A DNA stretch of 32,026 nt from Desulfovirgula sp. (GTDB taxonomy: Bacteria; Bacillota; Desulfotomaculia; Desulfotomaculales; Desulfovirgulaceae). The notes under the pieces were generated by a model. That model ran no database searches, was not told where the DNA came from, and saw nothing but the letters and a program-made list of their open reading frames with translations. Positions 12,868-32,026 of this stretch are shown in pieces; position 1 is the stretch's first letter; each line of letters opens with the position of its first letter. The stretch lies in contig DYEX01000185.1 of assembly GCA_020725525.1 (NCBI GenBank), forward strand, positions 1 through 32,026. Direction: 5' to 3'. A program made the translations under genes and the position numbers.

Positions 12868-14211
12868 GTGGTAAGGCCAAGAAGACGCAGAAGGGGCTTT
12901 CTACCCTTGCTGGGGCTGGCCCTGCTCCTGTTTTTGGGGGGCGGTTTTTTACTGGCCAACCAGTTGGGGTTCTTGTGGTTGGGTCTGGCCGTTGACCCGG
13001 AAGGCAATACGGTGGAGGCCAGTCAGCCCCCGGAGTCCTTTACCGTGCTGCTCCTGGGCACCGATGCCCGGCCCGGGGAAAAGGTGGGTCGAACCGACAG
13101 TATTATTGTGGCCAACGTGGATGGCGAAAAAAAGCGCATAGCCCTGCTTTCCATACCCCGGGATACCCGGGTGGAAATCCCCGGTCACGGGACGGATAAA
13201 ATCAATGCCGCCGCCGTTTACGGCGGGCCGGCGCTGACCTGTGAGACCGTCTCCAACCTCATCGGGATGCCCGTGCAGTATTACGCCCTGGCCCGCTGGG
13301 AAGGGTTCAAGAACATTGTGGACGTCCTGGGCGGCGTGACCATCGACGTGGAAAGGAACATGTATCACTACGACAGTTCCGACGGCCGTCAATATGCCAT
13401 CAACCTGCGCAAGGGGGTACAGCGCCTGGACGGCGATAAGGCCCTGCAGTATGTCCGCTTCCGGGGGGACGCCCTGGGGGACATCGGCCGCACGGAAAGG
13501 CAGCTGAAATTTTTAAAGGCCCTGGCCGGGGAAGTGATGCAGCCGGTCACCCTGGTAAAACTGCCCCGTCTGGTGCCGGAAATAAACAAGAGCGTGGAAA
13601 CCAACATGGGCTTCAAGCAGATGCTGGCCCTGGCCCGGGCGGCCCGGTATTTCGACCAGGCCGAAATCGTCACCCAGACCCTGCCCGGGCGGTTTCTGGA
13701 TTTAAGGGGCGTCAGCTACTGGTATGTGGACCCGGCGCAGGCCCATGAGGTGGCCCTGGCCCTCTTTGAAGAGGGGCGTGTGACGGAAGTGGTTCAGGGC
13801 CCCACGGTCAGCGAGGGTAAGTCTTCTTCCGGCCCGCCCGCGCGCAGGACGGGGACGGGTCAGCTTGCTGCCGGTGAGCCGGTGGTAACACCGTCTCAGT
13901 CACCCCCACCGGCGGTGCCGCCAGTTCTTCCTGGACCGGAAACAAACTCACCGGGCAGCGAGCCCGCGCCCGGTGATGGTGCCAACGGCGGTGCACCTGC
14001 AGGCGCTACGCCGGGGCAGGATAACGCTCCGTCTCCCGCCGATCAGCCGGGTAACGGTGGAGACACCGGTGACGGCAGCCCTTCTCCGCCTGCAGCGCGC
14101 ATAAAAACGGGCGAAAAGCAGAAGCCTCCCGCACCTGATGCGGAAAAACAGAGCGGTGATACCGGCGGGGTCATAGAAATTATCCCCATTCCCAGCGGAA
14201 GTGCCAGTTAG
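12868..14211 (+). CDS. LytR-CpsA-Psr (LCP) family wall-polymer ligase
   Basis: LCP enzymes move undecaprenyl-linked polymers onto peptidoglycan outside the membrane. The 447-residue protein has an Arg-rich N-terminus and one TM helix (residues 12-30). The LCP domain follows with FTVLLLGTDARPGEKVGRTD, LLSIPRDTRVEIPGHGTDKINAA, GGVTIDV and YVRFRGDALGDIGRTERQ, which contain the conserved Asp and Arg pyrophosphate-binding residues. From about residue 315 the tail is Pro/Gly/Ser-rich and low complexity, probably a wall-spanning spacer. GTG 12868 follows GAGGTG. It sits with the TagA-type transferase and CsaB, the enzymes of the polymer it would attach. Confidence 0.92.
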   Translation: MVRPRRRRRGFLPLLGLALLLFLGGGFLLANQLGFLWLGLAVDPEGNTVEASQPPESFTVLLLGTDARPGEKVGRTDSIIVANVDGEKKRIALLSIPRDTRVEIPGHGTDKINAAAVYGGPALTCETVSNLIGMPVQYYALARWEGFKNIVDVLGGVTIDVERNMYHYDSSDGRQYAINLRKGVQRLDGDKALQYVRFRGDALGDIGRTERQLKFLKALAGEVMQPVTLVKLPRLVPEINKSVETNMGFKQMLALARAARYFDQAEIVTQTLPGRFLDLRGVSYWYVDPAQAHEVALALFEEGRVTEVVQGPTVSEGKSSSGPPARRTGTGQLAAGEPVVTPSQSPPPAVPPVLPGPETNSPGSEPAPGDGANGGAPAGATPGQDNAPSPADQPGNGGDTGDGSPSPPAARIKTGEKQKPPAPDAEKQSGDTGGVIEIIPIPSGSAS

Positions 14212-14219
14212 TGGAAAAA

Positions 14220-14249
14220 TTCAGTAAAACGTTATGAGGAGGATGCGGC
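14220..14249 (+). repeat. Post-stop repeat module (CAGTAAAACCGT type)
   Basis: This 30-nt stretch, beginning TTCAGTAAAACGTTATGAGG, recurs at 31949-31979 with one substitution and one indel. Its first part also recurs at 16424. In all three places it lies just downstream of a stop codon on the same strand. Here it runs directly into the hairpin element. Confidence 0.75.
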
Positions 14250-14345
14250 ACTCACTGGAATACTAGCTCTTCCCAAAACCTGATGTGTCAATTAAACCTG
14301 AAACACCGGAAGCAGAGTCATATTTGGGTGAGTGGTGGGCCGCAT
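14243..14345. repeat. Hairpin element, copy 1 (subfamily A)
   Basis: The ends ATGCGGC (14243-14249) and GCCGCAT (14339-14345) are inverted, and CACTCAC (14249-14255) pairs with GTGAGTG (14328-14334). Inside, GTGT (14285-14288) pairs with ACAC (14303-14306) around a 14-nt loop that is nearly identical to the loop in copy 4. Compared with copies 2-4 the left arm of the closing stem lacks the CCCAG part. It lies in the 271-bp gap between the LCP and DUF5693 genes. Confidence 0.8.
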
Positions 14346-14385
14346 TCAACCTGGTTCACTGAATATTTACCCGTGAAGGTTTCCG

Positions 14386-14430
14386 TACGCCTCCTGTAGC
14401 ACCACTTGCAGTGCCCGCAGGAGGCTCGTA
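14386..14430 (+). other. Strong leader hairpin upstream of the DUF5693 gene
   Basis: GCCTCCTG (14389-14396) pairs with CAGGAGGC (14418-14425), with an inner stem GCAC (14399-14402)/GTGC (14411-14414) and an outer TACG/CGTA extension across a small bulge. A second small CCCC/GGGG hairpin follows near 14443-14454. There is no T-tract. The structure lies about 55 bases before the start codon and may attenuate or stabilise the transcript. Confidence 0.55.
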
Positions 14431-14483
14431 ACTTAAGGGCCCCCTCCGGGGAACAATTTGCCTGTGCTGGAGGTCTGTATATT

Positions 14484-16415
14484 ATGAAACAACGCTGGTA
14501 CCCCCTGTTGCTGGTGTTTCTTTTGCTGGCCGGTTTGGTGGCGGCAGCGGCGGTCGGATGGCAGCGCTACCGGGTGGAGGCCGGTTTTCGCACCGTGGAA
14601 GTGGCCATGCCCTATGACGAGCTGAACACCCTGGCCCGGCTGTCGGGGCGGGATACCCTGGAGGTGATGCGCCTTTTCCGGGAGCAGGGGCTGACCACCG
14701 TGCTTTTCAAAGAGCCCACGGTGGACGAACTGCGCCGCGCGGGAGAGCTCGCGGTAATGACCGGCCAGGAGCTGCAGTTAATGTCGCCCTCCTGGCTGGG
14801 GCAGCTGCGGGTCGGGGGTGAAACAGGTACGGGCGGTACCTATCTGATTACCTCCCGGGAAGAGACATTCCGGCGCCTGCTGGTCCAGCTGGAAGCCAGG
14901 ACCCCGGGAGCGCGGGGTTACCGGCCGGCACCGGGGGTTTACGTGGTGCACACCCCCGCCGACCCCGCCCTGCTTTCACAGCTGGGCCTGGGCTTTCCGG
15001 ACGGTCCTCTGCAGGACAGCGCCCGGGCCGGGTTGATGGCCATAGTCCAGGTGCGCAGCTGGCCCGGGGCCACCGCCAGGGGGATTGAGCAGGCCCTGGC
15101 GCCCTTGAAAGAGGTCCCCAACCTCTCGGCCCTGGCCTTTAACGACGACACCCTGCCCGGCTACCCGCAGGAATTACGGGCACTGGCCCAGGTGGTGGAC
15201 CAGCTGGGGGTTCCTGTGGCCCAGATTGAATTTTACCCCCAGAAAGGCCTTGATAAGCTTGGTGTGCTGCTGGACAAGGATGTGGTGCGCCTGCACAGCA
15301 TTCCCCCCAGGGATATGGGTCGCTACACCCCGGCCGAAGCACTGGAACGCTACAGGCTGGCTGCTGCCGAACGCAACATGCGGGTGCTGCTGGTGCGGCC
15401 CTTCCTGGGGGCGGGAGCCCGGGACGTGCTCCAGGAAAACCTCGATTATATAAGCAGCCTGAAAGAGAGTTTGCAGCGGGAAGGCCTGGTGGTGGGACAG
15501 GCTTCCACCCTGCCGGCACTGCCCGTCTCCCGCGCGAATCTCTTCGTCATGGGCCTGGGGGTTATTGCCGGCGGCCTTTTGCTCGCCGGGCGTCTGGGTT
15601 TACGCCGGGGGGAACTGTGGTTGCTGCTCCTGGCGGTGGCGGCCTGGGCCGGTCTTTTAGCGGCGGCTCCATCTCCGGCGCGCAAGCTGATGGCCTTAGC
15701 TGCGGTCATCATTTTCCCCAGCCTGGCTCTAATTACCAACGTTCGCGCCCGGGGTGCTTCCGCCCTGGAAAGTGCGGGCATGCTTTTGCGCACCACCCTG
15801 GCTTCCCTGCTGGGTGCGTTTTTTACCGTGGGCCTTCTGGCGGACGCCGGGTTCATGCTCAAGCTGGACCAGTTCAGCGGGGTTAAGCTGGCCCACCTGG
15901 CGCCGCTATTGCTGGTGGCGGGGGTGTTTTTCTTCCTGTCCGGCCCTGCAGAACCCTTTGGAAAGCGCCTGGAGAGGACGTTGAACCAGCCGGTGCTGGT
16001 CAAATGGGCCGCCCTCGCAGTAATGTTGCTGGTGGTTCTGGCCGTTTACCTCGTGCGTACCGGCAACGAAGGGCAAATGGCTACCTCCGCCCTGGAGCTG
16101 AAATTCCGGGGGGTCCTGGATGCCGTCCTGGGAGTGCGCCCGAGAACCAAGGAATTTTTACTCGGCCACCCCGCTTTGATGCTGTTGTTTTACACCGGCT
16201 ACCGTGACAACCGCTTCCTGCCCCTGCTGCTGCTGGGGGCCATCGGCCAGGTCTCCCTGGTGAACACCTTTGCCCATATCCACACGCCGCTTCTGGTTTC
16301 CCTGATGCGGCTGGTCAACGGCCTGTGGCTGGGGATTCTGGTGGGCCTGGCGCTCATCCTGGTGGTAAACCTGGCCGGGCACTGGTGGCGCAGGTTCTCC
16401 CCGGGGGACAATTAG
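14484..16415 (+). CDS. DUF5693-family multi-pass membrane protein
   Basis: ATG 14484 has GGAGGT nine bases upstream; the earlier in-frame candidate at 14406 would start inside the leader hairpin. The 643-residue protein begins with a TM helix (WYPLLLVFLLLAGLVAAAAV). An outside domain of about 330 residues follows, with motifs such as LNTLARLSGRDTLEVMRLFR and LEALERYRLAAAERNMRVLLVRPF. The C-terminal half holds about eight further TM helices from residue 352. Proteins of this type are habitually encoded next to csaB, as here, and are thought to take part in S-layer or secondary-polymer export or pyruvylation. No enzymatic motif is visible. Family call from gene order and architecture. Confidence 0.82.
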   Translation: MKQRWYPLLLVFLLLAGLVAAAAVGWQRYRVEAGFRTVEVAMPYDELNTLARLSGRDTLEVMRLFREQGLTTVLFKEPTVDELRRAGELAVMTGQELQLMSPSWLGQLRVGGETGTGGTYLITSREETFRRLLVQLEARTPGARGYRPAPGVYVVHTPADPALLSQLGLGFPDGPLQDSARAGLMAIVQVRSWPGATARGIEQALAPLKEVPNLSALAFNDDTLPGYPQELRALAQVVDQLGVPVAQIEFYPQKGLDKLGVLLDKDVVRLHSIPPRDMGRYTPAEALERYRLAAAERNMRVLLVRPFLGAGARDVLQENLDYISSLKESLQREGLVVGQASTLPALPVSRANLFVMGLGVIAGGLLLAGRLGLRRGELWLLLLAVAAWAGLLAAAPSPARKLMALAAVIIFPSLALITNVRARGASALESAGMLLRTTLASLLGAFFTVGLLADAGFMLKLDQFSGVKLAHLAPLLLVAGVFFFLSGPAEPFGKRLERTLNQPVLVKWAALAVMLLVVLAVYLVRTGNEGQMATSALELKFRGVLDAVLGVRPRTKEFLLGHPALMLLFYTGYRDNRFLPLLLLGAIGQVSLVNTFAHIHTPLLVSLMRLVNGLWLGILVGLALILVVNLAGHWWRRFSPGDN

Positions 16416-16423
16416 AGTATATC

Positions 16424-16437
16424 AGTAAAACCGTGTT
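16424..16437 (+). repeat. Partial post-stop repeat module after the DUF5693 gene
   Basis: TATCAGTAAAACCGTG begins eight bases after the DUF5693 stop codon and matches the first half of the modules at 14220 and 31949. It then diverges and runs into the left arm of the composite element at 16448. Confidence 0.6.
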
Positions 16438-16482
16438 GTTAACTACAAAGGCACGGTGTTGTCCAGAGCGAACAATTTTGCG

Positions 16483-16576
16483 CCCGGCACTCACCGGAAA
16501 GTTATACTTTTTTAGACTGATGTAACAGGTTGTAAACGCTGCCCTTTCCAGTATATCTTTTTCAGTGGGTGCTGGG
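16483..16576. repeat. Hairpin element, copy 2 (subfamily B)
   Basis: CCCGGCACTCAC (16483-16494) pairs with GTGGGTGCTGGG (16565-16576) through 12 positions, two of them G-U pairs where copies 3 and 4 have A-T. Inside, GGAAAG (16496-16501) can pair with CTTTCC (16544-16549). The right half CTTTCCAGTATATCTTTTTC matches copy 3 closely. Confidence 0.8.
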
Positions 16577-16676
16577 GAGGACGCCAACGAAACCAGGCGA
16601 GAGTAATGTAGAAGAACCATATCGGGTGGAAAAAGTAGATAGCATAAAGACAGTATCGATGGCAATCCGCAGAAGA

Positions 16677-16772
16677 CCCAGCACTCACTGGCCTTAATGC
16701 TCTTTCTAAGCTTGCTGTAACAAAATAGTAAATGCAGAGCTTTCCAGTATAGCTTTTTCAGTGAGTGCTGGG
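16677..16772. repeat. Hairpin element, copy 3 (subfamily B)
   Basis: CCCAGCACTCACT (16677-16689) and AGTGAGTGCTGGG (16760-16772) form a perfect 13-bp closing stem around about 70 nt. The right half CTTTCCAGTATAGCTTTTTC matches copy 2. It lies about 110 bases before csaB. Confidence 0.85.
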
Positions 16773-16879
16773 CGGCCCGAAGCGAACCGGGGTGCTGTCG
16801 GCGTGGAGCATATGAGTGAGCGGGACAACACCGTGCCTTAAGTTGGAAAGTGAATTCGGGTGAAAACGGGGGTGCTGTT

Positions 16880-18160
16880 ATGGCGGCCGGCAAAGGGCCG
16901 GTGGTGGCCATCTCCGGTTACTACGGTTTCGACAACCTGGGGGATGAGGCGGTCCTCTACAGCCTGCTGGAGGCTCTGCGGGAGGCGTGCCCCACCGTCC
17001 GGCCGGTGGTCCTTTCCCATGCCCCTGAAAGAACCAGTGCTCTCTACGGCGTAGAGGCGGTAAACCGCTGGCGGATAGGGGAAGTCTACCGCGCCCTCAC
17101 CAGAGCCGATCTGCTGCTCAGCGGCGGGGGCAGCCTGCTGCAGGATGTCACCGGCCTCAAAAGCCTGGTTTACTACCTGGGGGTGGTCTGGCTGGCCCGG
17201 CGCCTGGGCAAGCCGGTGGTTTTTTACGCCCAGGGCATCGGCCCCGTAAAAAGTAAAACCGGCCGGCTGTTGATGCGCCTGGTGGCCAGCGACGTGCAGC
17301 TCATTACCGTGCGGGACGAAAATTCCGCCCGGGACCTGGCGGAAATGGGGGTAACCCGCCCCCCGGTGGAGGTCACCGCCGACCCGGTGCTGGGTCTGGA
17401 CCCGGCCCGGGCGGATAGGAAGAAAGGGATGGAGATCCTGGAAAGAACGGGGGTTTTTGAACCCTCAGCCGGCCGGGATGGGGGGGACAACCAGCCCGGA
17501 TCAGCCCCATCCCCCGGGGAGGTATGCAGTGCGGGTAAACCCCACCCCCTGGTTGGGGCCGGACCGGCTTTGGGTGGAGGCGGGGGCAGGGGAAGTACAA
17601 CAGCCCCCGTGGCGGGAGTGTCGGTGCGGGAATGGCCCGGTTTTGGGGAGAAACAACAAGAGGCCCTGGCCCGGGTGTGCGACGATCTCTGCCGGCGGGG
17701 CTACCGGGTGCTTTTCATCCCCCTGCAGTACCCCGGAGATCTAACCGTGAGCCGGCAGGTGGCCGCCATGATGCGGGAACGGGCCGCTGTCCTGGACCGG
17801 AGGCTGACCGTTGGTGAGGCCGTTTCCCTGGTTGCCTGCCTGGACCTGCTTATCGGCATGCGGCTGCACGCCCTGATCCTGGCGGCGGTGATGGGTGTGC
17901 CGCCGGTGGGAATAAGTTACGACCCGAAGGTCGACCGTTTCCTGGAACAGCTGGGGCTGCAGCCTGCGGGGCAGGTAACCGGCCTGGAGTACGCCGCCTT
18001 GAGCCGGGCAGTAGATGAGGTTCTGGCCGATCCTGCCGGGTTCAGAGCCAGACTGGGCCGGGCGGTGGTCCCCTTGAGGGAGCGTGCCCGGGCCACCGCC
18101 CGGCTGGCCAGCGCATTAATGGAAGTTGGAGGTCGGAAGTCGGAAGTTAGAAACAATTGA
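16880..18160 (+). CDS. csaB: CsaB polysaccharide pyruvyl transferase
   Basis: CsaB adds ketal-pyruvate to the secondary cell-wall polymer, the ligand of SLH domains that anchor S-layer proteins. I use ATG 16880, preceded by GGGGGTG; GTG 16850 is an alternative. The 426-residue protein shows the family start VVAISGYYGFDNLGDEAVLY, the segment DLLLSGGGSLLQDVTG, FYAQGIGPVKS, ITVRDENSARDLAEMG, and the C-terminal GMRLHALILAAVMGVPPVGISYDPKV. Between the two lobes, about 60 low-complexity Gly/Pro/Ser residues are inserted (around 195-255), so it exceeds the usual 360-380. The last residues, MEVGGRKSEVRNN, are encoded by a copy of the dispersed GGTCGGAAGT repeat. Confidence 0.93.
   Translation: MAAGKGPVVAISGYYGFDNLGDEAVLYSLLEALREACPTVRPVVLSHAPERTSALYGVEAVNRWRIGEVYRALTRADLLLSGGGSLLQDVTGLKSLVYYLGVVWLARRLGKPVVFYAQGIGPVKSKTGRLLMRLVASDVQLITVRDENSARDLAEMGVTRPPVEVTADPVLGLDPARADRKKGMEILERTGVFEPSAGRDGGDNQPGSAPSPGEVCSAGKPHPLVGAGPALGGGGGRGSTTAPVAGVSVREWPGFGEKQQEALARVCDDLCRRGYRVLFIPLQYPGDLTVSRQVAAMMRERAAVLDRRLTVGEAVSLVACLDLLIGMRLHALILAAVMGVPPVGISYDPKVDRFLEQLGLQPAGQVTGLEYAALSRAVDEVLADPAGFRARLGRAVVPLRERARATARLASALMEVGGRKSEVRNN
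18121..18156. repeat. GGTCGGAAGT-family repeat inside the 3' end of csaB
   Basis: The stretch contains GGAGGTCGGAAGTCGGAAGT followed by an A-rich end, the same unit as in the tandem array at 8988-9065. It lies within the last codons of csaB and supplies its C-terminal 12 or so residues. Confidence 0.85.
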
Positions 18161-18170
18161 TTAGTTAAAC

Positions 18171-18193
18171 TCGCCCCGGGCGAAAGATTTTTT
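18171..18193 (+). terminator. Possible weak terminator after csaB
   Basis: TCGCC (18171-18175) and GGCGA (18179-18183) form a short stem with a 3-nt loop, followed four bases later by TTTTTT (18188-18193). The stem is short, so termination would be partial. Confidence 0.4.
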
Positions 18194-18254
18194 GCCCCTT
18201 CGCCATGGAAAAATTACGAAAGCAAGGCATTGTTTGTCTGGGGAGGTAATTCTG

Positions 18255-18315
18255 TTGATTGGTGTGAAAAAATTAGCCGCCATCCTGCTCGGGGGGGGCC
18301 TTTCTGTGGGGCAGC
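18255..18315 (+). other. Out-of-frame start and signal peptide of the phosphodiester glycosidase
   Basis: GGAGGT (18242-18247) is followed after seven bases by TTG 18255, which reads MIGVKKLAAILLGG. It then meets a run of eight G (18291-18298) and, in that frame, stops at 18333. The large frame downstream has a stop at 18274 and no ribosome site near its first ATG (18316). With seven G, the two parts join as KKLAAILLGGAFLWGSMAAF, a textbook signal peptide leading straight into the mature enzyme. So the real gene very likely begins here and is shifted by one base at the G-tract, by slippage, phase variation or a sequence error. Confidence 0.75.
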
Positions 18316-19818
18316 ATGGCCGCCTTTGCAGTTAAACCGGCCGGGGCGGATAGTGCCGCCGCCGGTTCCCAGGCCGTACAGGCCACGCTCGTGGGCAGGC
18401 CGGCACCGCAACCCCTGGTTTCCAGGCCGCCTGCCGGCCAGATCCAGACCCTGGCCCCGGGCGTCCGCTACTACCCCATTTCCGGCCGCACCTGGCAGGG
18501 GGAGCCCCTGCAGGGGCATGTGGTGGAGGTGGACCCCGGCCAGGCCCTGCTGGAGGTGCGGGTAGCGGTTGGCGGCGACGCTCTGGGCAATAGGGAAACT
18601 TTGAGCCAGCTGGCCGCCCGCCACGGGGCGGTGGCCGCCGTAAACGGGGGATTTTTTGATCCCTCCCGGGGACACCCCATCGGCAGCCTGGTCCAGGACG
18701 GCCGGCTCCTGGCCACCTCCGAAATTTTGCGGACCTCCATTGGTATCACCGGGCGCAACCAGGTCCAGTTTGGTTACTTTGCGCCCCGGGTGAGTGTTCG
18801 TTTTGGCTCGTCCGGGCCCCTGGCGGTGGCGCGGGTCAATACTTCTCCCGCATCCGAGGGCATTACCCTTTATACCCCGGCCTGGGGTGAGCGCGCCGGT
18901 TCCGCCGGTGACGGTATTGATGTGGTGGTGCGCCCGGAGACAGAAAAAAGCAACCGGTACATAGTTTCGGAAATTGGTTACGGGGGCAGCCCCATCCCGC
19001 GGGACGGATATGTATTCACTTTCCGGGGCGGCGCAGTGGGAGAAGCTGCCAGCCTGGCCGAGGGTACCCCAGTGATCCTGCAGTTTGACTGGGGTCCCGG
19101 ATGGGAGGAGCTAAAGCACCTGGTTACTGCCGGGCCTCTTTTAGTGGATGAAGGACAGCCCGTGCTGCAGGCCATTATGGAAGGGTTCCGGGGCAGCGTC
19201 CTGGAGCCGGCACCCCGCACGGCCATTGGTGTAAACGGCAAGGGTCAACTCCTGCTGGTGGAGGTGGACGGCCGGCAGAAGGATTGGAGCGCCGGTGTCA
19301 CCCTGGAGGAACTGGCCTACCTGATGACCGACCTGGGAGCGGTACGCGCCGCGGCCCTGGACGGGGGCGGTTCCAGCGGCCTTTGGGTCAAGGGCAAGCT
19401 GGTCAGCCGGCCTTCAGAGGGCCGGGAGCGGGGACTGGCCAACGCCATCCTGGTGCTCCGCCAGGTACCGGTTTACCTGAACGGCAAGCGCCTCTTCTTT
19501 GACGTCCCTCCCGTAGTGGATAAGGGGCGCACCCTGGTACCCATGCGGGGGATTTTCGAGGCCCTGGGGGCCACGGTGCACTGGGATGAAAAAACCAAGA
19601 CCGTAACGGCAACCCGCGGCGGGCGTACGGTCAGCCTGACCCTGGGTAAGGGTGAGGCGCTGGTCAACGGTAAAACGTTGCTCCTGGACGCCCCGGCCCG
19701 GGCGGTGGAAGGACGCACCATGGTTCCCCTGCGCTTTGTAGGTGAAGCCCTGGGGGCTGCCGTGACCTGGCAAAACGCCCCGCCGGCGGTAATAATTGAG
19801 GCAAAATCAGCTGGTTAG
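18316..19818 (+). CDS. Secreted phosphodiester glycosidase (NAGPA domain) with copper-amine-oxidase-N repeats
   Basis: The 500-residue frame (the true gene probably starts at 18255, see the preceding entry) carries a NAGPA/phosphodiester-glycosidase domain. Its marks are AVAAVNGGFFDPSRGHPIGS, PRTAIGVNGKGQLLLVEVDG and AAALDGGGSSGLWVKGK. In bacteria such enzymes cut or trim sugar-phosphodiester links in wall and exopolysaccharides. The last 115 residues are a copper-amine-oxidase-N-type module (VYLNGKRLFFDVPPVV, GRTLVPMRGIFEALGATVHW and a second half GRTMVPLRFVGEALGAAVTW), a common wall-associated add-on in Firmicutes. It follows csaB on the same strand, consistent with remodelling of the same polymer. 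Function is from family; substrate is unknown. Confidence 0.88.
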   Translation: MAAFAVKPAGADSAAAGSQAVQATLVGRPAPQPLVSRPPAGQIQTLAPGVRYYPISGRTWQGEPLQGHVVEVDPGQALLEVRVAVGGDALGNRETLSQLAARHGAVAAVNGGFFDPSRGHPIGSLVQDGRLLATSEILRTSIGITGRNQVQFGYFAPRVSVRFGSSGPLAVARVNTSPASEGITLYTPAWGERAGSAGDGIDVVVRPETEKSNRYIVSEIGYGGSPIPRDGYVFTFRGGAVGEAASLAEGTPVILQFDWGPGWEELKHLVTAGPLLVDEGQPVLQAIMEGFRGSVLEPAPRTAIGVNGKGQLLLVEVDGRQKDWSAGVTLEELAYLMTDLGAVRAAALDGGGSSGLWVKGKLVSRPSEGRERGLANAILVLRQVPVYLNGKRLFFDVPPVVDKGRTLVPMRGIFEALGATVHWDEKTKTVTATRGGRTVSLTLGKGEALVNGKTLLLDAPARAVEGRTMVPLRFVGEALGAAVTWQNAPPAVIIEAKSAG

Positions 19819-19846
19819 CCAAGATAAGTGAAAGGTGAGGATCACC

Positions 19847-20959
19847 ATGACCATAAGGGCAAATAAGTTCCTGGCGGCCGCTATTGCCGTATGCCTGGCC
19901 GCCGTCACCCTCCTTCCCCTGCCGGCCCCGGCCCAGGAAGCGGCGGTGGAGGTGGATTACCGGGACGACATTACCGTTAACCACCCCTACTACGTGGAGC
20001 AACTGCCCGACGGCAACCTGCTCATGACCCGGGTGGGACACCAGTCCCCGGCGGTGGTGGAAGTCACTCCGGCCGGGCAGGAGGTATGGTCGTACCAGGG
20101 CGTCCAGGCTGCTACGGCCCGGCGCCTGGCCAACGGCAATACCCTCATCGCCGATTCCGGTGCACCGGGCAACCCCTTTGTACCCCGGGTAATAGAAGTG
20201 AACCCGGCCGGCAAGGTGGTCTGGGAATACCGGCTGCCTTCCCCGGCACGGGCACCGCGGTATGCCCAGCGCCTGTCCGGCGGCAGCACCCTGATCACCC
20301 TGCCCTACCAGATTATCGAGGTAACCCCGGACAAAAAGGTGGTCTGGTCCTACGGCTGGGGCAGGCCGGTGCCGCCCGGCACTCCCGGCCACCTGGCCAA
20401 TCCGGTGCAGGCCGTCCGGCTGCCCAACGGGCACACCCTGATTGTGGACCAGGGCTTTACCGGGGGACGGGTACTGGAAATCAATGCTAAAAAGCAGGTG
20501 GTCTGGCAGGTAGGGGACGGCACGTACAACCCGTCGCCTGCCTCACAAGGAACCGTGCAGGGAACAGCGGGGAGTAGTGAAGAGCAAAGCAGCCAGCCGG
20601 AAGTTCCGGGTTTGGCCGGGTCAGGTGCCGGTACTACCCCGGCGGTCGACACCGTTCCCCGGGCAGTCAGGCTCAAGCGCCCCACGGGTGCCCTGCGTCT
20701 TCCCAACGGGAACACGCTGATTGCCGATGCCGGTACTTCCACCTTGTTAGAAGTATCTCCAGACCGGCAGATTATCAGTTCCTGGTCCTGGAGGGGCGCG
20801 CTGGCCGGCCTGCCCGTGATGAACCAGTGGCTGGTCACTCCCCTGGACCAATCCAGGGTGATCGTACCCCTGACGCTGACCAGTTCCAAATCCCGCGTGC
20901 TGGTGGTCACTTCTCCAGCCTTGCTCCCATTCGGCGCAGGGTTTGCTGGACCCAGCTGA
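19847..20959 (+). CDS. Secreted PQQ/arylsulfotransferase-like beta-propeller protein
   Basis: ATG 19847 is six bases after AGGTGAGG; GTG 19835 would lie inside that site. The 370-residue product has a signal peptide (residues 5-30, ending PAPAQ). It then has blade repeats whose clearest copies are RLANGNTLIADSG, RLPNGHTLIVDQG and RLPNGNTLIADAG, alternating with PAGKVVWEY-type strands. This is the pattern of arylsulfotransferase-like or PQQ-like propellers. No catalytic His of arylsulfotransferase was identified, so an adhesive or scaffold role is as likely. A Ser/Gly/Pro loop at about 230-265 interrupts the propeller. Its 3' end overlaps the convergent oxidoreductase gene by 53 bp. Confidence 0.75.
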   Translation: MTIRANKFLAAAIAVCLAAVTLLPLPAPAQEAAVEVDYRDDITVNHPYYVEQLPDGNLLMTRVGHQSPAVVEVTPAGQEVWSYQGVQAATARRLANGNTLIADSGAPGNPFVPRVIEVNPAGKVVWEYRLPSPARAPRYAQRLSGGSTLITLPYQIIEVTPDKKVVWSYGWGRPVPPGTPGHLANPVQAVRLPNGHTLIVDQGFTGGRVLEINAKKQVVWQVGDGTYNPSPASQGTVQGTAGSSEEQSSQPEVPGLAGSGAGTTPAVDTVPRAVRLKRPTGALRLPNGNTLIADAGTSTLLEVSPDRQIISSWSWRGALAGLPVMNQWLVTPLDQSRVIVPLTLTSSKSRVLVVTSPALLPFGAGFAGPS

Positions 20960-22793
20960 TCTGGGCGGGGCCGAAGCGGGCCGGCGCCTCGCCGTACAGG
21001 ACGGCCCGGGCCGCTGCCGCCCCCGCCGCATCCCCCAGCACGCATAAATTGGGAATAACCCGGATTTCCGCCCAGGCCAGTGAGGAGGCTCCGGTGGCAT
21101 AGCCCGGCACCAGTAAATTTTCGGCCTGCGGGGTGACCAGCATGCGGTAGGGAAGGTAGACGGGGTTCTGCGGCTCCCCGCCCTTCTGCTCCCAGTCGGG
21201 GCGCACGGTCCCCGTAACCGGCCAGGTGTACACGCCGTTTTGTTTTAAATCCCGGCAGGTGTAGGCATTGATATCCATGGCGTAATAACCCAGCCCGATG
21301 CGGGTGGGGTAGTTGGCCGCATCGGCTCCGTGCAGGATTGTCCGGTAATCTTTGGCGGTTGCTCGTTGCAAAACCGCTTTCCCGTTCCGGTCCGGTGTCG
21401 TGCCGTTTTCGGACCCGTCCCCCGCTCCCTGGCAGGCCTTTGCCGTCAGGGCATAGTTTGTGTTCTCCGTTCCATGGCCCACCTTTTCCGCATCCAGGGG
21501 CAGGTGGATGGTTTCCCGCAGGTAGAGAATATCCCCTACCACCGGCTCTCCCCGGCTGTCCCGCACCAGTTCCGCCCCGGCAAAACCGTAACGTTGCCCC
21601 GTGGCAGGGTTGACTGTGGAAAACTGCCGCAGCGCTTCCAGAAAGGCCGGGTTTTTCAGCATCTCCCTGGCCTTGAGCCGGGCGGTGTCCACATCCAGGT
21701 AGTCTTCACGCACGGCGGGATAGCGGGCAGTGCCCCGGTCCCGCAGGCAGGCCCGGCCGTCCACGTTGAAAACCACCAGGGCGTTCACCCACCACTCGGA
21801 ACTGCCCGGGCCGTTGGAGGCGGCATTTAACGGTTTTAAAGCAAACCCCCGGGGGGCGTAGCGGTCGTTGAAGGCCCTTACCACCGGGTTTTCCCTGAAA
21901 GTGCGGCTGCCTCCGGCAATACCCAGGCCGCCGCGAGGATCACGGATAAAGGTCAGGTCGCCTAATTTGAGCACCCTTCCCGTTTCCGGAGGGGGTACTT
22001 CCACGCCCCTGACCTTAAACATCAGGGTGGCTGCCTGCTGGCGGGCCAGCCCGGCGGTGGTGGTTTGAGCCTTTATTTGTCCCAGCCGCAAGTTCCGTTC
22101 CGAATCGTCAAGGTACTCTGCCGGCCAGTCGTAGCGCCCCCCGGTGGTGGCGACTCCCGCCAGGCGCGTCAGGCGGCCGTCGTCCGAGGCGTCCACAAAC
22201 ACCTCCCCCTTCACCCGGCGCACGTCGCTGCCCCAGCGGGTTACCCCGTTCTGGTCCGGGAAAACTTCCCGCAGGACGAGCTGTACAATGCGCCGGGGGT
22301 GGCCGGTATAATCTACCGCTTCTATATCATGGCACCAGAGAATAGAGATATTATCGTGTGCCGCCAGGTCCGCCCGCAGCAGGGTGGCCATGGTTCCCGG
22401 GTGGTAAAACTGCCCGGTCTGGCCGTACCAGCGGGCGAAGGAACCTCTAGCCACCAGTTGCCCCCGCCAGTGCCAGACATCAAAAAAGTTTTGCCCGCCG
22501 ATGGTGCCGGTACTGCCCAGGGCCGGTACGGGATCCGGTACCACCAGCAGGATGGACTTTTGCGGGGCGGCCAGGGCGGCGGTGCGGGCCGCGGCGCAGC
22601 CGGCGAAGCTGCCGCCGTAGATCACGACGTCGTATTGTTCTACCCTGGCGGTTAAGCCGGCATCGTACCAGGCGGTCAGCGGGAGGAGGGAGAGGAGAAA
22701 AAGGACCGGCAAAAGGGATGTAAAAAGGCGATCGCCGGCAAAATGCCGCGGCCGGTAACCGTTTTCACGCACGGGCCAGGTCTTGTTGTCCAT
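20907..22793 (-). CDS. Membrane-anchored FAD-dependent oxidoreductase (PF12831-like)
   Basis: The 628-residue protein starts at ATG 22793 with AAGGTGG upstream. It has an N-terminal anchor (LFTSLLPVLFLLSLLPLTAW), so the enzyme domain should lie outside the cell. The Rossmann FAD site is YDVVIYGGSFAGCAAARTAA at about residues 54-73, and the second FAD segment VIPNLCVLGDAAGAAAARAV is near the C-terminus. GEVFVDASDDGRLTRLAGV in the middle is typical of the FAD-dependent oxidoreductase / xanthan-lyase-associated group. No substrate can be named. It is transcribed against the surface-polymer genes and overlaps the propeller gene tail to tail. An external flavoprotein in an anaerobe is odd, unless it is a Tat- or Sec-exported sugar oxidoreductase. 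Confidence 0.82.
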   Translation of the reverse strand: MDNKTWPVRENGYRPRHFAGDRLFTSLLPVLFLLSLLPLTAWYDAGLTARVEQYDVVIYGGSFAGCAAARTAALAAPQKSILLVVPDPVPALGSTGTIGGQNFFDVWHWRGQLVARGSFARWYGQTGQFYHPGTMATLLRADLAAHDNISILWCHDIEAVDYTGHPRRIVQLVLREVFPDQNGVTRWGSDVRRVKGEVFVDASDDGRLTRLAGVATTGGRYDWPAEYLDDSERNLRLGQIKAQTTTAGLARQQAATLMFKVRGVEVPPPETGRVLKLGDLTFIRDPRGGLGIAGGSRTFRENPVVRAFNDRYAPRGFALKPLNAASNGPGSSEWWVNALVVFNVDGRACLRDRGTARYPAVREDYLDVDTARLKAREMLKNPAFLEALRQFSTVNPATGQRYGFAGAELVRDSRGEPVVGDILYLRETIHLPLDAEKVGHGTENTNYALTAKACQGAGDGSENGTTPDRNGKAVLQRATAKDYRTILHGADAANYPTRIGLGYYAMDINAYTCRDLKQNGVYTWPVTGTVRPDWEQKGGEPQNPVYLPYRMLVTPQAENLLVPGYATGASSLAWAEIRVIPNLCVLGDAAGAAAARAVLYGEAPARFGPAQISWVQQTLRRMGARLEK

Positions 22794-22832
22794 ACCATTG
22801 CCACCTTATTGTAAATTTTTCCGGCAAAAGGG

Positions 22833-22863
22833 TTGGCCAGGAGAAGGACTCCTGTGGTATAAT
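22833..22863 (+). promoter_or_regulatory. Extended -10 promoter upstream of fabZ with inverted repeat
   Basis: TATAAT (22858-22863) is preceded by TG one base upstream (an extended -10); a poor -35 TTGGCC stands 19 bp before. A perfect inverted repeat CAGGAG-AAGGA-CTCCTG (22838-22854) fills the spacer and could be an operator. The transcript would carry hairpin element copy 4 in its 5' leader. Confidence 0.6.
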
Positions 22864-22919
22864 ATTCCTGTTTTAGCTCGAAGCTTTAGCGTAGTCCGTT
22901 TGCAGTCGTTCGCTCCGGA

Positions 22920-23014
22920 CCCAGCACTCACTAGCATATCAGGTCTTCAAAAACCTCGGGTATCAATTAAGCCTGAAATACCAAGAGCTGAGTCGTATTC
23001 TGGTGAGTGCTGGG
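22920..23014. repeat. Hairpin element, copy 4 (subfamily A), in the fabZ leader
   Basis: CCCAGCACTCAC (22920-22931) pairs perfectly with GTGAGTGCTGGG (23003-23014). Inside, GTAT (22960-22963) pairs with ATAC (22978-22981) around a 14-nt loop differing from copy 1 at one base. TCAG-g-TCTT (22939-22947) can pair with AAGA-g-CTGA (22983-22991). It is flanked on the left by GTTCGCTCCGGAC, the reverse complement of a motif at 31983-31995. Confidence 0.85.
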
Positions 23015-23054
23015 CGGCATCCGTGTCAAAACGATTTTATTGAAATATTTACAG

Positions 23055-23090: not shown

Positions 23091-23522
23091 ATGCTGGACG
23101 TACAGTCGATACAAAAAATTCTCCCCCACCGCTACCCCTTCCTTCTGGTGGACAGGATTGTGGAGGTGGAAGAGGGGAAGCGGGCCGTGGGCATTAAAAA
23201 TGTCACCATCAACGAGCCCTTTTTTGCCGGGCACTTTCCCGGCCATCCGGTGATGCCCGGGGTGTTGATTATTGAAGCCATGGCGCAGGTAGGGGCGGTG
23301 GCTCTCCTGCAAATGCCGGAGTTTGCCGGTAAGCTGGCTCTTTTTGCCGGTATCGATAAAGCCCGGTTCCGCCGCCAGGTGGTACCCGGGGACCAGCTGC
23401 ACATTGAAGTCCAGATTCTCAAAATGCGCGGGAGCATTGGCAGGGCGGCGGGGCGGGCCATGGTGGGAGACCAGCTGGCGGCCGAAGCGGAGCTCATTTT
23501 TGCCGTAGAACAGGGAAGTTAA
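23091..23522 (+). CDS. fabZ: 3-hydroxyacyl-ACP dehydratase FabZ
   Basis: FabZ removes water from 3-hydroxyacyl-ACP in each round of fatty-acid elongation. From ATG 23091 the protein is 143 residues, the usual length. It starts [20 protein letters not shown], as FabZ proteins do. The hot-dog fold active site is [20 protein letters not shown] followed by EAMAQ, with catalytic His in GHFPGHP and Glu in IEAMAQ. The frame stays open upstream to 23007, but that extension crosses the hairpin element. It stands alone, away from other fab genes. The lack of a visible terminator after it leaves read-through into the wecA-like gene possible. Confidence 0.95.
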
Positions 23523-31906: not shown

Positions 31907-31948
31907 GAAACCAGGCACATAGACATTGAGTTAAGCAATTTAAAAGTA

Positions 31949-31979
31949 TTCAGTAAAACCGTTATGAAGAGGATGCGGC
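31949..31979 (+). repeat. Post-stop repeat module after metK
   Basis: The 31-nt stretch beginning TTCAGTAAAACCGTTATGAA matches 14220-14249 with one substitution and one indel. The following CGCTGTCCGGAGCGAACGAC resembles 16458-16474 and is the reverse complement of sequence at 22906-22919. It probably heads another repeat element that continues past the window edge. Confidence 0.75.
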
Positions 31980-32026
31980 GCTGTCCGGAGCGAACGACTT
32001 GCGAAGCGCCGGTAACAGCACCCGGT

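Follow-up and report, generated by a model that had tools for sequence, protein, structure and literature searches.

What are the four similar hairpins of about 95 nt that lie between positions 14,243 and 23,014 of a 32,026-nt contig of Desulfovirgula sp. (DYEX01000185.1; the whole stretch analysed is called the window here)? The original prediction, made from the sequence letters, took them for intergenic elements kept by selection on structure, as RNA or as single-stranded DNA. Our analysis leads to a different answer: the ~96-bp hairpin is probably an interchangeable internal cassette of a non-autonomous miniature inverted-repeat transposable element (MITE) of the IS66 type in thermophilic sulfate reducers. 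Transposon ends, target duplications, empty sites and cassette turnover were all observed, and the surprise of the locus is that the 12-nt arms at the ends of the hairpin are fixed whereas its middle is replaced.

The hairpin copies of the window

All four hairpin copies lie where the original prediction had placed them, with a similarity far beyond chance, and they divide as proposed into two subfamilies by their inner sequence, A (copies 1 and 4) and B (copies 2 and 3). Only copies 3 and 4 have the exact closing stem CCCAGCACTCAC/GTGAGTGCTGGG that had been announced as common to the four. Copy 2 does keep it through G-U pairing (CCCGGCACTCAC/GTGGGTGCTGGG, one change per arm and two G.U-type pairs), and copy 1 lacks the CCCA of its left arm and carries one change in the right arm (GTGAGTGGTGGG). 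The outer stem ATGCGG/CCGCAT of copy 1 is part of the surrounding element and not of the hairpin. The 14-nt loop matches at 13 positions between copies 1 and 4, as had been noted. The proposed unit of ~95 nt was too small: conserved flanks and inverted ends extend beyond the copies, and the real unit is larger. The features are as follows.

14213..14370, no strand: IS66-type MITE with copy 1; degenerate at its left end, with GTAAATATTCAGTGAACCAG as right end (minus strand)
14248..14339, plus strand: hairpin cassette copy 1, subfamily A
16417..16841, no strand: MITE with copies 2 and 3; degenerate ends, limits approximate and set by eye, left end read as GTATATCAGTAAAACCG
16483..16576, plus strand: hairpin cassette copy 2, subfamily B
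16677..16772, plus strand: hairpin cassette copy 3, subfamily B; sister genome G004 has another interior between the same arms and flanks
16826..16830, plus strand: CAACA, a cassette-free site; in G004 an A cassette replaces exactly these 5 nt
22920..23014, plus strand: hairpin cassette copy 4, the second sequence type of subfamily A; G005 has it too, and G002 has CAGCG instead
23015..23052, plus strand: right part of the copy 4 element, ending in TTGAAATATTTAC; left end not recognisable
31942..32026, plus strand: beginning of another MITE of this family, truncated at the contig end; end motif at C178:31942-31961 with 3 mismatches

Contigs C176 and C181 likewise begin or end inside hairpins. 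As these contigs and the window stop within elements or hairpins, the repeats seem to break the assembly.

Transposon ends, target duplications and empty sites

The extended copies have conserved flanks that end in inverted copies of GTAAATRTTCAGTRAAMCCG. At up to three mismatches this end motif has 89 matches in the Desulfofundulus-type genome of the window, and the reversed pattern has none. At up to two mismatches it was found in all six genomes of the genus, where copy numbers range from 14 to 111, and altogether in 38 of 150 genomes, our own included; the reversed control gave one match in each of five genomes, and single matches elsewhere may be due to chance. Pairing of ends gave 43 candidates including overlapping alternatives, of which 28 pairs were retained by taking the best of each overlap with no more than six summed mismatches (three of the 15 dropped candidates, C93, C3 and C148:20511-20823, have seven or eight of eight flank matches). 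In 13 of the 28 non-overlapping pairs the element is flanked by an 8-bp target duplication, taken as at least seven of eight flank matches, compared with a mean of 0.46 and a maximum of 5 in 10,000 shuffles, and no pair reaches the same stringency at widths of 5-7 or 9-11 bp. The pairs span 36-403 bp (five are 58 bp long; the extremes are possibly false pairs), too short for a transposase gene, in keeping with a MITE. The pair around copy 1 (14213-14370) has four and one mismatches, the single one in its right end at 14351-14370, and its 8-bp flanks match at four of eight positions.

Comparison with related genomes revealed insertions that some of them lack. The three sites of the window were compared with five sister genomes (G003 lacks anchors at sites 1 and 4). 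Another eight sites of our own genome were compared with 20 fetched sister loci, not every sister being read at every site. At five of these eight sites (C109, C66, C14b, C148 and C93) one or more sisters have no element. The C148 empty site in G004 and G005 has ATTGACAT once, exactly 8 nt or one target copy between the anchors, and the same holds for GTAGCCGG at C14b in G002. Where C66 lacks the element (G001, G002 and G005) 5 nt separate the anchors, at C93 in G004 11 nt do, and at C109 in G004 and G003 the anchors directly adjoin. The other three sites are less clear, with a short and ambiguous sister sequence at C102 (G005, 27 nt) and C14a (G001, 18 nt) and other sequence at C115 in G001. 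Within the window, site 4 lacks the element in two (G001 and G004) of the four sister genomes having both anchors, and at site 1 G004 has CCAGTTAGCATTTACAAAGG, either element-free or an end remnant, and G001 and G005 retain remnants. Taken together, the inverted ends, the 8-bp duplications and the empty sites therefore identify a transposable element, a class that the original prediction had not considered.

Parentage of the elements

Which transposase could have moved these elements? Our own genome has a single IS66 match, which lacks these ends, and thus no matching autonomous element. An autonomous partner in the same genome is not essential to the definition of a MITE. The IS66 copies of the genus were rejected as parents, since the loci fetched show no pair of the MITE ends; among these loci a single end match was seen (L222, five mismatches). 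Outside the genus the picture is different. G046, a genome from the same order, has a decayed element of 1983 bp (L230:1111-3093) between two such ends, flanked by CGAAGGCA twice, in which Pfam, run on this locus only, found an IS66 transposase tail (PF03050) and a DruA domain (PF14236). A similarity search with this tail gave matches in 50 of 120 genomes. Among 30 returned loci eight have an end at up to four mismatches and three more at five, where the reversed control has two matches, and 11 longer stretches were fetched for end pairing. Three of them hold both ends, a perfect 8-bp repeat, a transposase open reading frame (ORF) and a DruA-like ORF: L271:1412-4683 (3272 bp, AAAAATTC twice), L274:1261-4600 (3340 bp, AAAACCAG twice) and L276:1479-4232 (2754 bp, TATAGCTC twice). 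Their transposase ORFs, of 535-569 aa, were found by similarity to the L230 tail, and the DruA-like ORFs were recognised by eye. The contig of L275 consists of one such element and nothing more, L272, L273 and L281 have end pairs without a matching 8-bp repeat, and L277, L278, L279 and L280 gave no accepted pair. The ends of L230, L271, L274 and L276 lie one to three mismatches from the 20-nt motif, as expected of IS66-type terminal inverted repeats (TIRs). Since other genomes of the order thus hold transposons that combine an IS66-type transposase gene and a DruA-type gene with similar ends and with 8-bp duplications, the window elements are read as non-autonomous MITEs derived from IS66. As a separate observation, the DruA-like (PF14236) gene is a passenger in all four of these transposons; DruA otherwise names an anti-phage system.

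Hairpins with conserved arms and variable interiors

The family is not confined to the window, since it occurs throughout the genome and in other genomes. Our own genome (3.24 Mb) holds at least 26 BLAST matches to copy 4 and at least 14 to copy 3, the query included in each and with 40 of 66 candidates scored. An exact arm-plus-arm pattern had 42 matches, against none for its reversed control, and was present in 9 of 150 genomes searched. Hairpin matches numbered 52 in G004 and 16 in G002. In a scan of named genomes, the matches listed include Desulfofundulus thermosubterraneus, D. australicus, D. thermobenzoicus, Moorella mulderi, M. stamsii, a Syntrophomonadaceae metagenome-assembled genome and two unclassified Clostridia assemblies. 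A phage or plasmid origin was rejected, as the exact arm pattern had no match in viral contigs and 16400-16860 of the window had none in phages or plasmids.

What defines the cassette is its arms. In our own genome the mean pairwise difference per site is 0.036 in both arms of subfamily A and 0.178 in its interior (23 of 27 copies), and 0.042 and 0.028 in the arms of subfamily B and 0.326 in its interior (12 of 14 copies), the four A and two B places left out being short or cut. The 12-bp arms thus differ about 5-12 times less than the interior of ~72 bp; most A copies overall were fetched by exact arms, which makes the own-genome arm figures the unbiased ones. The closing arms show no covariation; what is conserved in them is the sequence itself. 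Among 117 distinct exact-arm hairpins, a set that leans to exact arms because most loci were fetched by them, 105 are 94-99 nt long. With five above 100 nt set aside, the remaining 112 form interior families of 36, 31, 14, 10, 9 and 8 members and four singletons. When eight interior consensi were compared, only 3 of 28 pairs reached z ≥ 3, so that most interior families cannot be aligned and a few may share an old origin. In the 96-nt form the arms are 84 bp apart from centre to centre, which is by arithmetic about eight helical turns, and in 42 of 52 A copies GA precedes the left arm.

Different cassette families sit in elements with different ends, as judged by eye and with no duplication established there: family E elements have ends like GATACTGTCGCAAAACC, and the Moorella elements end in GGCTGGCATTTGT. 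In L195 an A cassette adjoins a GGTTATGCGACAGTATC end. L169, L195 and L200, of family E, belong to a second family of miniature elements with GATACTGTCGCAAAACC-like ends that also carries the cassette. We also noticed related hairpins with slightly different arms, CCCCGCACTCAA/TTGAGTGCGGGG, in L147, L149, L158, L196, L201, L204 and L207 and in L153 and L129 of Moorella, the variant arms of L129 being CCCAGCACTCAACTCG/CGAGTTGAGTGCTGGG. These arms suggest a wider hairpin superfamily around GCACTCA/TGAGTGC.

Cassette turnover at shared insertions

At 6 of the 11 sites compared (1, 2 and 4 of the window, C109, C115 and C14b) the same insertion differs between species in the presence or type of its cassette, and in five of seven comparisons the cassette stands for exactly 5 nt. 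At site 1 the same element in G002 has a 21-nt tip where the window has hairpin A. The A cassette of site 4 is common to the window and G005, and G002 has CAGCG there. The insertion with copies 2 and 3 has a nearly identical counterpart in G004, in which the element and the first B cassette are the same as in the window; the second cassette is B in the window, and G004 has a different interior there, arms and near flanks being shared. Another element at site 2 carries A in G002, G005 and G003 versus TGCTA in G001, and G003 also has B. At C109 the A cassette of our own genome exactly replaces CAACG; G001 and G005 have a short form (GTGGACAACGCGGCACC in G001) and G002 a form of ~310 bp without the A cassette. 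At C115 A replaces CGTTG in our own genome. A B-type cassette lies in another part of the element in G002, and of this cassette G005 as well as our own genome keep an apparent right arm only. At C14b G001 has the same insertion with GCGAAGC for the B-type cassette of our own genome, plus a further insert. Two sites have the same cassette in two species, C66 (our own genome and G004) and C14a (our own and G002). The direction of these changes, gain or loss, is inferred. The result is a MITE family with internal modules that turn over inside fixed insertions and with arms far better conserved than the content between them, and the same insertion with a cassette, without it or with another interior offers natural before-and-after pairs for the exchange mechanism.

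Mechanism and alternative explanations

How could a cassette enter a resident element? The MITEs would have been spread by a transposase of the IS66/DruA type which is not now found with these ends in the genus, and cassettes may then pass between resident copies by short-tract gene conversion or template switching. Such an exchange could be primed by the shared flanks and arms, usually swapping a 5-nt stretch (CARCR-like) for a hairpin. The arms would be kept through recognition, as inverted DNA repeats or as a hairpin, and the interior would mainly be a spacer. Several results weigh against this scheme. Homology to the left of the cassette at C109 amounts, by eye, to about GTGGA, and so short a stretch puts a strain on gene conversion, which also leaves unexplained the same arms in differently ended elements of Moorella and others. 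The 5-nt exchange has exceptions at C14b (7 nt) and site 1 (about 21 nt), and 15 of the 28 end pairs, that of copy 1 among them, have no clear 8-bp duplication. Finally, the genus yielded no autonomous element bearing such ends: the fetched IS66 loci have no end pair, and G004, with its 52 hairpin matches, has no IS66 match.

Alternatively, the cassette may be mobile in its own right, a module with a dedicated site-specific enzyme and the 12-bp arms as ends, which usually exchanges a 5-nt target and would thus pass from one MITE to another of different origin. The recurrence of the arms in other genera and in elements that end differently, the exact 5-nt exchange in five of seven differences, the A cassette beside the GGTTATGCGACAGTATC end of L195 and the near-constant length with mostly unrelated interiors are all consistent with this idea. 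However, no candidate enzyme was found, the 5-nt rule could stem from one old insertion copied by conversion, two differences break it (21 and 7 nt), no target duplication was seen, and the GA before the left arm in 42 of 52 A copies places most of them at one kind of place, so that we hold such a module to be unlikely. We also consider it rather improbable that ~96-bp cassettes, with 12-bp inverted arms and a near-fixed spacing as their sole defining features, are swapped by a putative dedicated enzyme, usually for 5 nt, into unrelated miniature transposons of several clostridial lineages. Whatever the mechanism, arms common to several genera raise the question of what recognises CCCAGCACTCAC inverted at 84 bp.

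Two-sided differences in the arms could also arise from template-switch correction during replication, with no selection on pairing, and long palindromic DNA would favour it. In the outer arms of 21 elements the match within an element is not clearly better than that across elements (3671 of 20,000 permutations reach it, so that covariation is not significant), as such a process allows, in a comparison confounded by the cassette replacing part of one arm. It leaves the identity of the arms across genera unexplained, and we give it a small probability.

The original prediction rested on pairing being kept while sequence drifts, and a structured RNA selected for its fold, such as a riboswitch, a small RNA or a processing hairpin, was examined in 37 subfamily A sequences with 500 shuffles, bearing in mind that related sequences exceed shuffles even without structure. 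In the proposed inner stem 86.5% of the cells are paired, a value reached by 7 of 500 shuffles. Its covariation score of 0.337 is reached by no shuffle, slid versions of the stem score lower, and it has no more pair types than the shuffles. There are 14 two-sided cells, a number reached by 1 of 500 shuffles, all at pair 46-64; the number of pairs with a two-sided change is thus one, which 422 of 500 shuffles reach. In the remaining three pairs the changes are one-sided or disrupt pairing. The change from GTGT/ACAC to GTAT/ATAC between copies 1 and 4 is accordingly present, and it amounts to a single base pair. No two-sided change occurs in the closing stem and other inner helices of the 37 A sequences, nor in 29 of 32 B sequences (L014, L047 and L137 left out). 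We judge the changed pair to be one event in one subfamily, which makes the covariation claim weak in spite of its score above all shuffles. Predicted folds of the copies range from -27 to -43 kcal/mol, a range not compared with shuffles. In line with the original prediction, which knew no described riboswitch, T-box or REP class with this consensus, no Rfam family reached threshold, either at curated thresholds over the window or in a loose search over 14200-14400 and 16400-16860, where the only hit was a sub-threshold one to mir-2774 (18.5 bits against a threshold of 51). A hammerhead-like CTGATG...GAAA motif considered for A was dropped, since B is without it.

Copy 4 follows a TATAAT box (22858-22863) and precedes the start, at 23091, of a fabZ-like gene, whose 5' leader it presumably occupies, and it may be transcribed; gene names in the window come from a reading of ORFs and not from a family search. 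As G001 and G004 have no element at this site, copy 4 seems not to be needed by the fabZ-like gene. The hairpins are not a new RNA proved by paired mutations, a free-standing RNA family being disfavoured by covariation and context, and we regard a structured RNA as very unlikely. A two-sided change among a few repeat copies is, more generally, weak evidence for one. An element of the REPIN type (a paired form of the repetitive extragenic palindrome, REP) moved by a REP-associated Y1 transposase is hardly credible: Y1_Tnp occurs in seven of nine carriers and the conserved inverted ends, variable interior and high copy number would suit it, but the 8-bp duplications and IS66-type ends do not, and G002 (16 hairpin matches, 99% complete) and G080 (83% complete) have no Y1_Tnp match.

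Comparison with known systems

With a MITE cassette as the preferred explanation, the elements can be set beside described ones. No description of these repeats was recognised in the open-access literature, as judged from titles and the openings of abstracts. ISDge4, an IS66-family element that has been seen to transpose, has the TIRs GTGACTACTCAGCA/GTAACTGCTCAGCA and an 8-bp direct repeat (PMC12898284), and a duplication length of 8 is tabulated for both IS66 elements in PMC3281130. The GTAACTGCTCAGCA end of ISDge4, which belongs to the ISBst12 group (PMC12898284), resembles the GTAACTGTTCAGTA of some MITEs and the 8-bp repeat is shared, whereas the window elements have no transposase gene. 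They are likewise small, non-autonomous and bounded by inverted ends as prokaryotic MITEs in general are; in the review PMC10969869, the main text has neither IS66 nor hairpin nor nested, uses cassette for gene cassettes, and in the portion examined has no exchangeable hairpin. REP and REPIN elements have similarly conserved inverted ends and a variable interior, and the window elements differ from them in having no obligatory Y1 transposase, in their IS66-type ends and in the 8-bp duplication.

The closest analogue, as far as architecture alone is compared, is found in the BOX elements of Streptococcus pneumoniae. According to PMC3049150, BOX elements of S. pneumoniae and S. suis are modular short repeats with inverted ends, target duplications and a length that can vary between strains at one locus, and S. 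suis has one and the same boxB module within two distinct sets of ends. The likeness consists in the modular short repeat, the inverted ends, the target duplications and the varying length of a locus. According to the same paper boxB is a tandem module of varying copy number; unlike it, the cassette of the window has conserved 12-bp inverted arms, a near-constant length of ~96 bp and exchangeable interiors, and it is carried between IS66-type ends.

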